From positions 1 through 21,817 of IMG/VR virus record IMGVR_UViG_3300034375_008000: a DNA stretch of 21,817 nucleotides, one strand, 5' to 3'. Position numbers and translations under genes: made by a program. The notes beneath the pieces are model-generated. The model had not been told where the DNA came from, made no database searches, and worked only from the letters and a program-made list of their open reading frames with translations. This DNA is from a virus. Shown piece after piece: positions 10,310 through 21,817 of the stretch; the first letter of the stretch is position 1, and the number at the start of each line of letters is the position of its first letter.

Positions 10310-10323
10310 ATTTTATTTTTTAG

Positions 10324-10397
10324 TACACCCAAAAGGATTCGAACCTTTGACCTACTGCTTAGAAGGCAGTTGCTCTATCCAGCTGAGCTATGGGTGC
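10324..10397 (-). tRNA. tRNA-Arg (anticodon UCU)
   Basis: A complete 74-base cloverleaf on the minus strand. The acceptor stem GCACCCA pairs with TGGGTGT (G-U at the first pair). The D arm is GCTC...GAGC with the AGCTGGATAG loop. The anticodon stem ACTGC/GCAGT has loop CTTCTAA and anticodon TCT. The T arm contains GGTTCGAATCC and the discriminator is A. The CCA end is not encoded. It reads AGA (and AGG), frequent arginine codons in this AT-rich window, so it may supplement the host pool. Confidence 0.95.
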
Positions 10398-18093: not shown

Positions 18094-19935
18094 TTATGAC
18101 AATAAGCTAATTAAAGCTGACTTGTCATCAGTAGTTAGGTCAAAACAATCTTTGGGAATGTTTGTCTCATAGTCCATATAAACTTCAGAGTTCTCTGTGT
18201 ATAAATAATCATTTAACATAGGAGAACAATTAGATAGCTTAATTTGAGAATCAATGTAACCTTTAAGAAAGTCAGCATTAGAAACTCTGCTATTACCTAA
18301 TCCACGATTAGTAAATATGAACTGCCCATCAGTAAAGATAGCTGCAGTCATTTGTAGACTTGACAAAGACAACTGTGTCTTAAAAATTATATCATCAGGA
18401 TTGACCATATAACCTCTACCATAGTTAGATATATCTTTAGAAACTTTAGCTACAAAAAATGTAAACTTAGCATCTATTTTAGATTGATAACCATTTATGG
18501 CAAACACACCATCTTTTAATCCATCAGTAAACCACAAACATTCAGTAGCTTCAGGATTAGCTGAAGTCATATCACCAGAATAAACAATAGATTCATTATT
18601 ATAAGTAGCATTCCAACCAATCTTTTGACCATCTAAGTTCAAAAATGATAAATCAAGGTCAACAGCACCATCTTTACCAAACCAATGAATACCTACAATA
18701 AATGCGCTATCATTAGTTATCTTAAGTCTAGAATTTATGGGTAAAGTACCAGTAAAATTCTTTTCACTAGTAGGAATAGCCATATTAATATCAGACATAA
18801 CTTTAAAGTTGGTGTTCTTAAACTTATCATTACACTTAGCACGTAACTCAGAAGAAATCATTGATTTATAGTTCAATAAAACATCTATTTCCTCAGTAGT
18901 AAGATCAAAGTTATTTACCTTAACAAAGCTTTTACCATTACGAACATTATAAGTATCATAGAATCTATATGGCAATAAACGTTTTTGAACTGCATTATAA
19001 TACTTAGATAATTGGAATACAGAAGCTTCTTTAAGTAAGTCACTTACATTACTCGCATAATTACCATTAAGAAATGACTTAGTTAAGAACTTAGTAGACC
19101 ACGGTAACTCACAAGGAACATGATGCTTCTTAGACAACTTAGATATCTTGTTTATAATAGGAGCAAATTCCTTATTACTTTCCTTCATACTAAGGAAAAA
19201 ACGTTTATATCTATTAAAACCTTTAGATACTTCAGTATAACCTAAATACTCTATAAGTTCTTTAGTCTTTATAACTTCATCATTCATTACACGATTACTG
19301 TGAAAGAAAGTGTCATGATACATATTTATATTCTCACGAGACTTAACAATCATTGCAGACCCAGTAATCATATAATTAATCATAGACATCATGTCATCAA
19401 CATCTTTAGGATATATACCATACTTAACTTTATATGCTATGATGGCTTCACGATTTTGAATCTTAAATAATGATAGAGTAATATCAAATTCATCAATAAG
19501 TTCAAATAAATCTTTCAAAGTATTTTTATGAAGAGCAATGTTACTATATAGCATTTCTTTAACTTTCACAGTTATTTCATCTATAGTAATAGAATTTATA
19601 AACTTGCAGTCAGTAAAGTCAACACAAATATCAGACTGATTAGGAACATAAGCTTTACCTTGGAAATTTGTACCATATGTAGAGATATAGTGTAAAATTT
19701 GATCTACAGCTACTTCTTCAATAGTAAGGTTTACTACTTCTTCAAAAGTACTATAGAAAGTAGAGTTATAATTGATAGGTAATGTATCTATGTAAGCTTT
19801 AACACGATCTTGGTCAACATAACGGTCAATAGCATAACCTTTCTTTGCACATTCTACAATGAGTTCATGAGAAACAGAGGAATTCTCTTTGGACAGTGCA
19901 CGCCCAAACAAACGGATTTCAGCAAAATTTGCCAT
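18094..19935 (-). CDS. large protein with C-terminal TerD-like domain
   Basis: A 613-residue soluble protein. Residues 1 to about 375 are helical and unassigned. From about 380 it follows the TerD-like region I know from the bacterial MXAN_6230/SCO0854 group. NMAIPTSEKNFTGTLPINSR (384-403) is followed by VGIHWFGKDGAVDLDLSFL (414-432, with the VDLDLS motif) and SGDMTSANPEATE (453-465). TerD domains bind calcium and belong to tellurite and stress-resistance modules; here the role is unknown. It has the longest coding region of the window, a strong terminator just after it and a 400-base structured leader region before it. No membrane or signal segment is seen. A virion protein is possible but unsupported. 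Confidence 0.65.
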   Translation of the reverse strand: MANFAEIRLFGRALSKENSSVSHELIVECAKKGYAIDRYVDQDRVKAYIDTLPINYNSTFYSTFEEVVNLTIEEVAVDQILHYISTYGTNFQGKAYVPNQSDICVDFTDCKFINSITIDEITVKVKEMLYSNIALHKNTLKDLFELIDEFDITLSLFKIQNREAIIAYKVKYGIYPKDVDDMMSMINYMITGSAMIVKSRENINMYHDTFFHSNRVMNDEVIKTKELIEYLGYTEVSKGFNRYKRFFLSMKESNKEFAPIINKISKLSKKHHVPCELPWSTKFLTKSFLNGNYASNVSDLLKEASVFQLSKYYNAVQKRLLPYRFYDTYNVRNGKSFVKVNNFDLTTEEIDVLLNYKSMISSELRAKCNDKFKNTNFKVMSDINMAIPTSEKNFTGTLPINSRLKITNDSAFIVGIHWFGKDGAVDLDLSFLNLDGQKIGWNATYNNESIVYSGDMTSANPEATECLWFTDGLKDGVFAINGYQSKIDAKFTFFVAKVSKDISNYGRGYMVNPDDIIFKTQLSLSSLQMTAAIFTDGQFIFTNRGLGNSRVSNADFLKGYIDSQIKLSNCSPMLNDYLYTENSEVYMDYETNIPKDCFDLTTDDKSALISLLS

Positions 19936-19954
19936 AATTAAAATAAATTAAAGA

Positions 19955-20343
19955 GTGAAAAAATAAAGAGTGCCTCAGATGGGATGTAAATATTTATGCT
20001 TGAATTAGAAAAAGGAACATCCTGTATCTATCAGCACTCTCATAGGTTAATTTGTTGAAGCATCCATAAAGACCAGAACACAGGCGACCAGTACATATTG
20101 CCTTGTTGTGTTGTCAAACTTTATAGACCTCCAACTCTCTGTTTAAATTGTTTAAACAGGAACTGGTATTTTGGTTTTAGTTAAAGACGGAAAGTAAGTG
20201 CTGCTATTATAAATGAATAGGAACTTTCTATGTCTTAGTACAGCTGGTTACTACACGCTGTCTGTGCCAGCAGCTTACTGGATAGGATAGATTCACGAGT
20301 TTATAGTCAGAACAATCTCCAAACAACCTGACTTGGGGGAGGA
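19955..20343 (-). ncRNA. candidate structured RNA 1 (pseudoknot-rich, about 390 nt)
   Basis: No gene fits this stretch. Perfect helices: 19967-19973/20034-20040 with 19982-19987/20017-20022 inside; 20066-20071/20119-20124 enclosing 20077-20085/20100-20112 (bulged); a 9-bp hairpin 20139-20147/20151-20159; 20193-20205/20269-20279 (11 bp, one bulge); 20305-20310/20328-20333. Loop bases cross out to downstream partners: 19996-20001 with 20058-20063, 20087-20092 with 20162-20167, and 20317-20320 with 20338-20341, giving three pseudoknots. On the minus strand the last helix (AGAGTGC...GCACTCT) is followed by a TTTATTTTTT tract. That looks like an intrinsic end and favours the minus strand. It could be a free RNA or the leader of the TerD-like gene. 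Confidence 0.5.
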
Positions 20344-20344
20344 A

Positions 20345-20506
20345 TTAAATACTATTTTCAATTGAAGTTTCTTGAGATGCATTATCTTCATCTCGTCTTC
20401 TCTCTTCATAGCATTGCTGACACTCATGATAGTCATCACAAGTGCAAGTTAATTCTGGTGATATGCTATATAACATATACATATCTTTAGCTTCTTCAAA
20501 GTTCAT
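20345..20506 (-). CDS. 53-residue Cys-containing small protein
   Basis: A short ORF starting MNFEEAKDMYMLYSISPELT and continuing CTCDDYHECQQCYEERRRDE, with TAA stop. The four cysteines (CxC...CxxC) could bind a zinc ion. The acidic tail is disordered. Its ATG lies just after the stop of gene 20518-20697 and its stop borders structured RNA 1. Confidence 0.55.
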   Translation of the reverse strand: MNFEEAKDMYMLYSISPELTCTCDDYHECQQCYEERRRDEDNASQETSIENSI

Positions 20507-20517
20507 AATTTCTAAAT

Positions 20518-20697
20518 TTAAGATTTATACTTTTCTTCATCTGGAAACATCTGTGGCACCCATAAGAACATGAAACTAAATACAGCCATAACAGCACTAG
20601 CTGTTGGTGCTTGGGCATATATACACATAACTGCAGATACACCACATAACATTCCTAACGTTACTAAAAACAAGTAACCGTTGCTAAACTTTTTCAT
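20518..20697 (-). CDS. 59-residue membrane protein
   Basis: A short ORF with two hydrophobic segments (YLFLVTLGMLCGVSAVMCIY and SAVMAVFSFMFLWVPQM) and a charged end (FPDEEKYKS). It is likely an inner-membrane hairpin protein of unknown role. It has a lysine start (MKKFSNG), an A/T-rich leader and a TAA stop, and lies between the two structured non-coding blocks. Confidence 0.6.
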   Translation of the reverse strand: MKKFSNGYLFLVTLGMLCGVSAVMCIYAQAPTASAVMAVFSFMFLWVPQMFPDEEKYKS

Positions 20698-20719
20698 AAT
20701 AAAATAAATTTATTTAAGT

Positions 20720-21421
20720 GAACAATACATCTTACGTTGAGGTGCATTTATTGCACCACAAATATATAAAAGTAAAATGAGGACTTGCCTGTGCTAGGTA
20801 CACAGGACTTTATTTAATGTTAATTAAGATAATGAGTTTTGTTTATGCTCTAAACAAAATCTTATAAACAAGAGTATAACAATATCCTACATTGCTATTA
20901 GACCGCTGAGTCATCACTTGAATTATACTGAATTCCACTTCAGTCAGCTGTATTCTCCCAAGTGGAATCTTTGTGGAGGAGAATAGATAAATGACATACC
21001 ACATATTACTGCTGTGGTCAACAGGATCACACTGCCAGATTGCTCTCGTGTATAAAACTGTCTAGTTTAAATTAAACTCACATAGCTTTATCATTACTAT
21101 ATGTAAAATACCTGATTTTAAAGTCTGCACTAACTTTGGATTCATATCACTGCAAATGATATGTTAGCACTATACTCTCTTTGCAGGAGAAGTATAGAAC
21201 CCAATAGAAGCCCCACAGGTTTGTCACTGTTTGCTAACAGTAAAGAGTACTCTCACAAGGTTGCAACCCTTGTTTTGTTCAAATCATGCTGTTTTGCGAA
21301 CATCTACACTTTTCAGTGACAGCTATAGTTAGAAGTAAATCATCTATGTTTACTACCTGCAATTGGATGAGAGTATGTCAAGGTTTGTTTTAGACACTGC
21401 ACTCAGACAGGTACTTGACGG
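20720..21421. ncRNA. candidate large ornate RNA 2 (pseudoknots and kissing loops, about 700 nt)
   Basis: 742 bases without a gene hold many perfect helices. Hairpins: 20741-20746/20752-20757, 20788-20793/20801-20806, 20837-20845/20851-20859 (9 bp), 20998-21003/21013-21018, 21143-21149/21157-21163, 21170-21179/21187-21197, 21255-21260/21268-21273. Pseudoknots: 20932-20940/20960-20968 with 20951-20958/20978-20985; 21162-21169/21232-21239 with 21222-21229/21314-21321; the latter with 21248-21255/21368-21375; 21354-21359/21408-21413 with 21377-21382/21414-21419. Loops CTGCAAA (21150) and TTTGCAG (21180) are fully complementary. The strand is unresolved: neighbours are on minus, but the helices are nearly free of G-U pairs. 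The density of crossing helices resembles GOLLD/ROOL-type RNAs; no family is assigned. Confidence 0.5.
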
Positions 21422-21441
21422 AAGGTATAACATTACACCTT
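21422..21441 (-). other. hairpin at the end of gene 21440-21694
   Basis: On the minus strand AAGGTGTA pairs with TATACCTT (8 bp with one G-U available only on this strand; 21434-21441 with 21422-21429) around a 4-base loop, immediately after the stop codon. It may end the mRNA or separate it from RNA 2. There is no U tract. Confidence 0.4.
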
Positions 21442-21694
21442 ATAAGTTATCATAGACAATAATACTATCTATCTCAGATACTTTTGCTTTATACACATCG
21501 CCATATCTATTCTGCACAAACGCAGAGTCTCCCTGAACTTCAATAATATATTCAGGTTTAACAAGAGGCGGGAACATATCCTCATGATAACAAGTATCAT
21601 CATAAGCATTGTGTATTAGTATATGTACTATAGTAGCAGTAAGAATAGTACCTAACAAAAATCCAATTAAATAACGGTCATTATTAGTAGTCAT
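21440..21694 (-). CDS. small membrane-anchored protein
   Basis: An 84-residue protein starting MTTNNDRYLIGFLLGTILTA, with one transmembrane helix (about 8-27). A soluble part follows with VKPEYIIEVQGDSAFVQNRYGDVYKAKVSEIDSIIVYDN, a small beta-type domain. A single N-terminal anchor implies the domain lies on one side of the inner membrane. The frame is open 33 codons further upstream to 21793, but that would overlap the divergent plus-strand start, so I use the ATG at 21692-21694. It is the first minus-strand gene at the switch point. Confidence 0.6.
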   Translation of the reverse strand: MTTNNDRYLIGFLLGTILTATIVHILIHNAYDDTCYHEDMFPPLVKPEYIIEVQGDSAFVQNRYGDVYKAKVSEIDSIIVYDNL

Positions 21695-21796
21695 GGCCAA
21701 TAAGATTAGAGAGTGAATAAAAAAGCGGGAAACTAAGGGTATACCAATCCTATATATAGAGATAACACATAGTAAGGGTAATCTAAAAAACAAATC
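21695..21796. promoter_or_regulatory. divergent intergenic region
   Basis: About 100 bases separate the minus-strand ATG at 21694 from a plus-strand ATG at 21797. Promoters for both directions should lie here. No clear TAnnTTTG box is seen on either strand, so phage-type or modified-polymerase promoters are possible. A TATATATAGAGATA stretch at about 21753 is the most A/T-rich candidate. Confidence 0.35.
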
Positions 21797-21817
21797 ATGA
21801 AAGTTAAAATTAGCTAT
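21797..21817 (+). CDS. start of a plus-strand gene (cut by window end)
   Basis: ATG AAA GTT AAA ATT AGC TAT (MKVKISY) is preceded by an A-rich leader CTAAAAAACAAATC like those of other genes here. Only seven codons are visible, so it may be a gene or chance. Confidence 0.4.

Follow-up and report, generated by a model that had tools for sequence, protein, structure and literature searches.

The Hatchet is a class of self-cleaving ribozyme, reportedly first described by Weinberg in 2015. According to the passages of a 2015 biochemical paper considered here (PMC4604424), cleavage in known Hatchets falls at the base of stem P1, between C-1 and U1; P1 very often has exactly 6 bp, a regularity noted there and left unexplained. 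The same passages assign a P0 hairpin, unconserved in sequence and dispensable, to about 90% of Hatchets, and give no example from a completely sequenced organism; a later review, in the part considered, names Veillonella genes for the class. The natural role of Hatchet ribozymes is not stated in the literature passages covered. Gut phages carry the Theta ribozymes, an HDV-like class described in the passages covered as cutting next to the 3' ends of tRNAs (PMC10879173). The open-licence literature gave us no report of Hatchets in crAss-like phages, or of the leader and the modules A and B that are presented below.

We analyzed a complete IMG/VR virus record of 21,817 bases (the window), in which a block near one end (20720-21421) had been singled out in a preliminary description as noncoding on both strands. 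This is what we find: no ORF of at least 60 aa overlaps 20698-21439 on either strand, the longest ORFs of the block have 53 aa (minus) and 52 aa (plus), and a protein frame across the block is rejected on this ground. An Rfam scan places a full-length Hatchet ribozyme (RF02678) at 21110-21247 on the minus strand (86.7 bits against a cut-off of 51, E 4e-17). When 19900-21817 is scanned, the Hatchet match has an E of 3.6e-18 and aligns positions 1-133 of the 133 of the model; it is one of five matches at E up to 5, and the other four have E of at least 3. RF02678 has no match in 14 control genomes. The conserved core, between P1 and P2 and in the P2-P3 bulge, is present as ACAA.CCUGUGGGGC and GUGCAGAC.UUAAAAUCAGG when aligned to RF02678, and 28 columns are invariant across the 30 Hatchets, out of 43 distinct ones, in our alignment (A1). 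These comparisons establish, at the level of sequence, that the core of the block is a Hatchet. Its P1 is the 6-bp stem UUACUG/CAGUGA with a C|U site at the base, in line with the P1 lengths of 3 or 6 bp of the class, and the RF02678 alignment, read with the C-1/U1 site published in the passages considered, predicts cleavage at C21247|U21246 (21246-21247, minus strand). From the known chemistry of the class we infer that the transcript would cut itself at this bond.

The predicted cut is also a border in sequence conservation. We compared 22 distinct leader-bearing Hatchets for which the upstream sequence is long enough. In the 60 bases that precede the cut, pairwise identity averages 0.31-0.37; in the 45 that follow, it averages 0.97, with position +3 as the single variable one (identity 0.32). 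At the threshold chosen, the last 87 bases upstream of the cut form 10 groups, a grouping that separates L010 from L011 although the comparison of upstream segments links these two. Base -1 is C in the window; among the 22 loci it is C in only eight, U in 12 and A in two. Because the jump in identity coincides with the predicted cut, the conserved unit begins where cleavage by the ribozyme would create an end.

A helix listed in the preliminary description, 21162-21169/21232-21239, corresponds to an internal contact of the minus-strand Hatchet, in which the P1 loop (21232-21237) pairs with L3 (21164-21169). The P1 loop reads UUAGCAAA, UUAGUAAA or UUGAUAAA in 32 of the 43 distinct Hatchets, and the matching L3 partner was found for 31 of these 32 (20/21, 6/6 and 5/5, respectively), with L082 as the sole exception. 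The contact was counted by script since RNAalifold on A1 did not recover P1, whose long loop was misaligned. An initial count over loop positions 1-5 gave a partner in 13/20 of the UUAGC class; the final one was made on positions 2-6, with one wobble permitted and the region's first 20 bases left out. Partners found by chance in the other loop classes amounted to 1/21 and 3/5 for UACUR, 11/21 and 3/6 for UAUCR, and 0/11 for UGCUR. The counts support a covarying P1-loop/L3 contact within the Hatchet, and this pairing offers a reason why P1 so often has exactly 6 bp. The passages of PMC4604424 considered here make no mention of the contact, and the word pseudoknot is absent from that paper as covered.

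At the place of P0 the window carries a larger element, module A (21249-21374, minus strand), whose closing stem (21368-21374/21249-21255) ends one base before the C of the cut site. The layout is stem, UCCAA(UU)GCAGG, variable interior, the conserved hairpin CAAGG-RUUGCAA-CCUUG (21256-21272) and the stem again. The helix proposed earlier at 21248-21255/21368-21375 is this closing stem, and it covaries; the one proposed at 21222-21229/21314-21321 is not supported, as one of its arms is a strand of Hatchet P1 and the other falls within the module's variable interior. A pattern scan for module A returned 73 contigs. The hairpin is present in 61 of 71 distinct hits and the full 7-bp stem in 56 of those 61, while the 10 of 71 without the hairpin are probably chance hits in coding sequence. 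In a hand-picked alignment of 35 of the 71 hits (A3), 4 of 12 pairs show changes on both sides, compared with 1.0 in shuffled alignments (as many in 0/500). The 100% pairing of module A is valid for the rows of A3 only, because 5 of the 61 hairpin-bearing hits are without the 3' arm of the closing stem. L141, L144, L210, L263 and L272 keep the hairpin intact and have this arm replaced, as if by recombination at the module end.

Taken with its flanks, module A overlaps no ATG ORF of at least 60 aa in 49 of 64 cases, and the next ORF lies on the same strand upstream in 57/64 and downstream in 53/64. Its 68 inserts belong to 28 families. In ten other regions the module comes after the leader, and the two closest relatives of the window, L006 and L012, have a plain hairpin at its site. 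L023 has a second, diverged module A hairpin (~1000-1060) within ~70 bases of the first. Searching named phages with one instance of the module gave no match at E up to 1, and a single pattern found none in bacterial and archaeal genome contigs.

On the other side of the cut, the Hatchet heads a conserved RNA of ~470 nt (21247-20779, minus strand). Alignments of the block with many relatives start at 21246-21249 and end at 20778, which fixes the boundaries of the unit; others stop earlier, in some cases because the contig of the relative ends. With L010, L011 and L013, no other part of the window aligns. A scan with a leader-core pattern, exact over 28 bases and reaching close relatives only, returned 25 contigs, and all 25 also hold a Hatchet over the cut-off, which ties leader and Hatchet together. 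Directly after the Hatchet comes a hairpin, CAUAUAG/CUAUGUG (21079-21104, minus; the position of the 3' arm was counted by eye), that is conserved in the alignment of the group. It is followed by an exchangeable arm (20992-21064, minus), absent or replaced in relatives, of which there are 26 in 8 families and none in L006 and L013. The leader core, D (20779-20991, minus), has hairpins at 20978-20985/20951-20958 and 20928-20943 and further ones at 20901-20912, 20880-20894, 20837-20859 and 20788-20806.

The stems of the core covary. We aligned 24 earlier leader cores and L048 (A2, 25 cores) on a structure written by hand, with 39 pairs distributed over 6 helices: 18 of the 39 pairs changed on both sides against 8.0 in shuffles (sd 1.3; 0/500), and 88.7% of cells pair, a share that is 85.1% in shuffles and never exceeds 48.5% after sliding. 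Further pair types, at 30, do not exceed the shuffled value of 29.7, and in the present alignment helix 5 is paired in just 41.5% of cells. An unconstrained fold adds the hairpin CUGAA-GUGGAA-UUCAG, whose loop can pair with UUCCAC, the loop of the hairpin AUUCUCC/GGAGAAU. The stems of both hairpins covary and the six pairs between the loops are invariant; the two loops probably form a kissing loop (20962-20967 with 20933-20938, minus). The preliminary description had suggested that the RNA may be a new class. Its core is the known Hatchet, and the suggestion may hold in part, for the domain after the Hatchet and for module A, for which Rfam 15 has no family at gathering and no match at E up to 1-5 in the stretches scanned to that depth.

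The block lies among genes of its own strand. Most of the larger ORFs of the window are on the minus strand, as are those adjoining the block on both sides: upstream 21440-21694 (84 aa from ATG, or 117 aa with a start at the TTG of 21793; PHROGs gave no match) and downstream two small ORFs of 59 aa (20518-20697) and 53 aa (20345-20506). Among the ORFs listed for relatives such as L006, those upstream are mostly co-directional as well. The notion of a transcription switch point at the block is not borne out by this arrangement, the window ending 123 bases past the ATG at 21694. Further downstream is an ORF of 613 aa (18094-19935, minus) with no PHROGs or Pfam match and a single relative in viral contigs, 89% identical.

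We consider it likely that the minus strand encodes a composite, self-processing RNA, made of module A, Hatchet and leader, within a gene transcript. Transcription would run from the 84-aa ORF through module A, the Hatchet and the folded leader into the small ORFs and the 613-aa gene, and the folding Hatchet would cut its own transcript at the predicted site. By analogy with the class, the upstream product would stop one or two bases beyond the closed stem of module A and bear a 2',3'-cyclic phosphate at its end; its downstream counterpart would start with a 5'-OH, continue as the structured leader of ~470 nt and carry the following ORFs. The likely use would be to separate and protect two RNA products and to place a standard leader before exchangeable small genes. 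Co-transcription with the neighboring genes, and a role in protection or translation, are what we infer from this layout.

What follows the leader bears on the role of the downstream product. In 20 of 24 loci an ATG lies 18-45 nt after the last leader hairpin and opens 43-300 codons; the ORFs belong by eye to several families, the commonest having 44 aa. Since the start codons of differing ORFs keep this distance, the downstream domain looks like a portable 5' leader. The exceptions are the window itself (59-aa ORF at 80 nt), L006 and L012, which have no ORF of at least 15 codons within 160 nt of the leader, and L064, whose stored stretch ends at the leader; it is in the lineage of the window itself that the leader reading is at its weakest. 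It is possible, if doubtful, that the downstream product is instead a free noncoding RNA with its 3' end at or after 20788-20806, which the ORFs merely adjoin. The sharp ends of the conserved unit, the variety of the ORFs behind it among phages and the want of a long ORF starting nearby in the window, L006 and L012 would fit such an RNA, but the narrow range of ATG distances speaks for a leader, and by eye no terminator is apparent at the place in question. We think it unlikely that the leader is a regulatory switch in which cutting or translation answers to a ligand, to a phage protein or to the exchangeable arm. A switch would be in keeping with the conserved loops, with the many exchangeable arms and with a probable kissing loop next to the start codon region; however, the several different ORFs that follow point to no single metabolite or product, and the matches to the block at E up to 5 include no known riboswitch.

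The free exchange of the segments before the cut could also be taken to mean that the Hatchet is a sequence relic or stays uncut in the cell, and that the block is a spacer or a DNA-level element such as a recombination site. We regard this as quite improbable, given that the Hatchet core is intact, the stems covary as RNA and one strand folds better than the other; a self-processing RNA accounts for the locus better in our judgment.

That one strand is the minus strand. RNA folding z-scores for 20779-21247 are -2.48 on the minus and -1.15 on the plus strand, and -0.87 for the plus strand of 20720-21421 (from only 20 shuffles). With the Hatchet match and the ORFs on both sides in the same direction, the comparisons put the RNA of the block on the minus strand; a plus-strand RNA was rejected for its weaker folding and for want of a family match. 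The earlier impression of structure was sound, because local hairpins exceed shuffles: Watson-Crick stems of at least 6 bp with loops of at most 12 number 11 against 2.3 in dinucleotide shuffles (0/60 as high), those of at least 7 bp 2 against 0.47 (4/60) and those of at least 8 bp 1 against 0.15 (9/60). The perfect hairpins of 6-10 bp, at least seven, reported there thus hold as an excess of short hairpins and fail at the upper length, as a perfect helix of 10 bp is absent from the block, whatever the distance between its arms. Without a limit on distance, helices are only mildly over chance at 8 bp or more (10 against 5.1; 2/60) and number 2 against 1.4 at 9 bp or more (22/60). The pair 21377-21382/21414-21419 is identical in L006 and L012 and stays a candidate. 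A pseudoknotted noncoding RNA common to phages was rightly recognized, with two helices that covary, and was assigned to the wrong strand. The large ornate plus-strand RNA held by a chain of crossing helices is scarcely tenable: it draws on the local hairpin excess and on two helices that are real on the other strand, whereas the Hatchet sits on the minus strand, plus-strand folding is little better than in shuffles, the supposed kinship to GOLLD, ROOL and OLE finds none of them among the five matches in 19900-21817 and none at gathering in the window, and the pair thought to close the whole (20906-20911/21401-21406) is not common to relatives, its upstream arm lying in sequence that most of them do not have.

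Relatives were collected by two exact-pattern scans of viral contigs for the Hatchet core, which gave 14 and 74 stretches, 6 of them common. A Hatchet exceeds the cut-off in 52 of the 82 records behind the scans (8/14, 21/34 and 23/34; 2 more lie below); the pattern is short and many of the remaining records are probably chance hits. Two named human-gut phages are among the carriers. In cr115_1, of the order Crassvirales, two Hatchets (38623-38746 and 40799-40937) lie between annotated features, with no RNA feature annotated at either; one is ~420 bases upstream of a tRNA-Leu. The other phage, cr60_1, has one. The record of L037 (G035) has three, at 34050-34233, 34335-34443 and 37787-37907. 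Many records of this group of uncultured phages are 100-124 kb long, and the phages look mostly aquatic, going by their IMG sample numbers. The DnaB-like helicase of the window has relatives in 13 of 15 records tested (31-96% identity); among named phages its nearest are crAss-like (~30%), and the SF2 helicase is nearest to Flavobacterium phages (31%). Terminase models for placing the phages matched in 0/15 and 1/14, and a crAss-like tail protein matched in 6 of 15 records, cr115_1 and five at E 1e-4 to 1e-3. Membership of Crassvirales is not claimed for the window, because the terminase models failed and the tail-protein matches outside cr115_1 are marginal; these phages may be distant kin of that order. 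No named phage is similar to 19936-21817 at E 1e-5.

Module A is one of several such elements. Module B has the frame UUAAUGCACCA-hairpin-CAGUUGUAA-insert-UUACAACUG-AGUGCAGAGGGG and occurs, for example, at L023:1094-1214 and in 131 other places in 174 array regions (retained of 201); it was not found in the window. Its 5-bp hairpin covaries over 136 distinct instances and 18 stem types (on average 4.83 of 5 paired against 3.46 in shuffles), and its closing helix pairs at 6.73 of 7 against 5.14 over 15 distinct combinations. Its 134 inserts, of 24-166 nt, form 105 families. Module B has no Rfam match in the stretches scanned, one instance has no match in named phages at E up to 1, and no insert is common to different module types at E 1e-3. 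A recurrent motif, CTATCCAGTAAG, lies at 20274-20285 (minus) in the window and in 21 other array-region instances, and probably belongs to yet another RNA module, located in the noncoding stretch that precedes the 613-aa gene.

Segments found before Hatchet cuts recur elsewhere: 23 of 39 also match places without a recognized Hatchet behind them, an upper bound since some of these places are contig ends with a cut-off Hatchet (e.g. L084/L132). This recurrence suggests that the RNA modules are shuffled at their ends. Judging from such comparisons, we give about an even chance to the reading that the phage group carries intergenic rows of structured RNA modules whose ends are sites of recombination, the Hatchet cut being one such junction; that several modules are a constant frame around a fast-changing insert belongs to the same reading and is as evenly balanced. 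If true, the rows would be an undescribed phage RNA system, and inserts that change so fast would make sense if the RNAs act against host targets that vary, for instance as decoys or binders.

The locus can now be set beside the systems that it most resembles. GOLLD, ROOL and OLE are, in the passages covered (PMC12286853), large structured noncoding RNAs with pseudoknots, the first two in phages; the block matches none of them at E up to 5. The glmS ribozyme, as described in the parts considered (PMC6154101), is likewise a self-cleaving ribozyme in a 5' untranslated region, but it is of another class and ligand-controlled, and here several different ORFs follow. The Theta ribozymes of gut phages, again from the passages covered (PMC10879173), are small phage self-cleaving ribozymes that cut beside structured RNA. 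Here, in contrast, the class is Hatchet and what precedes the cut is module A or another segment rather than a tRNA; the window has no HDV-like ribozyme match, and its sole tRNA is at 10323-10397. The closest likeness is to RF02678 itself, with its full-length match, conserved core, cut at the base of P1 and hairpin-closed element before the cut; the difference is that the Hatchet is here fused to a conserved leader and that the place of P0 is held by a module that also occurs alone. The ribozyme class is thus known, and the leader, module A, the inner contact and the phage context are apparently new. The leader and modules A and B have the look of RNA families that Rfam 15 does not contain. 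The Hatchets here have a repeated place, between phage genes, heading a conserved leader, with unrelated segments ending before the cut, and this repeated place opens the role of the Hatchet to testing, which holds for cr115_1 and other named gut phages as well.
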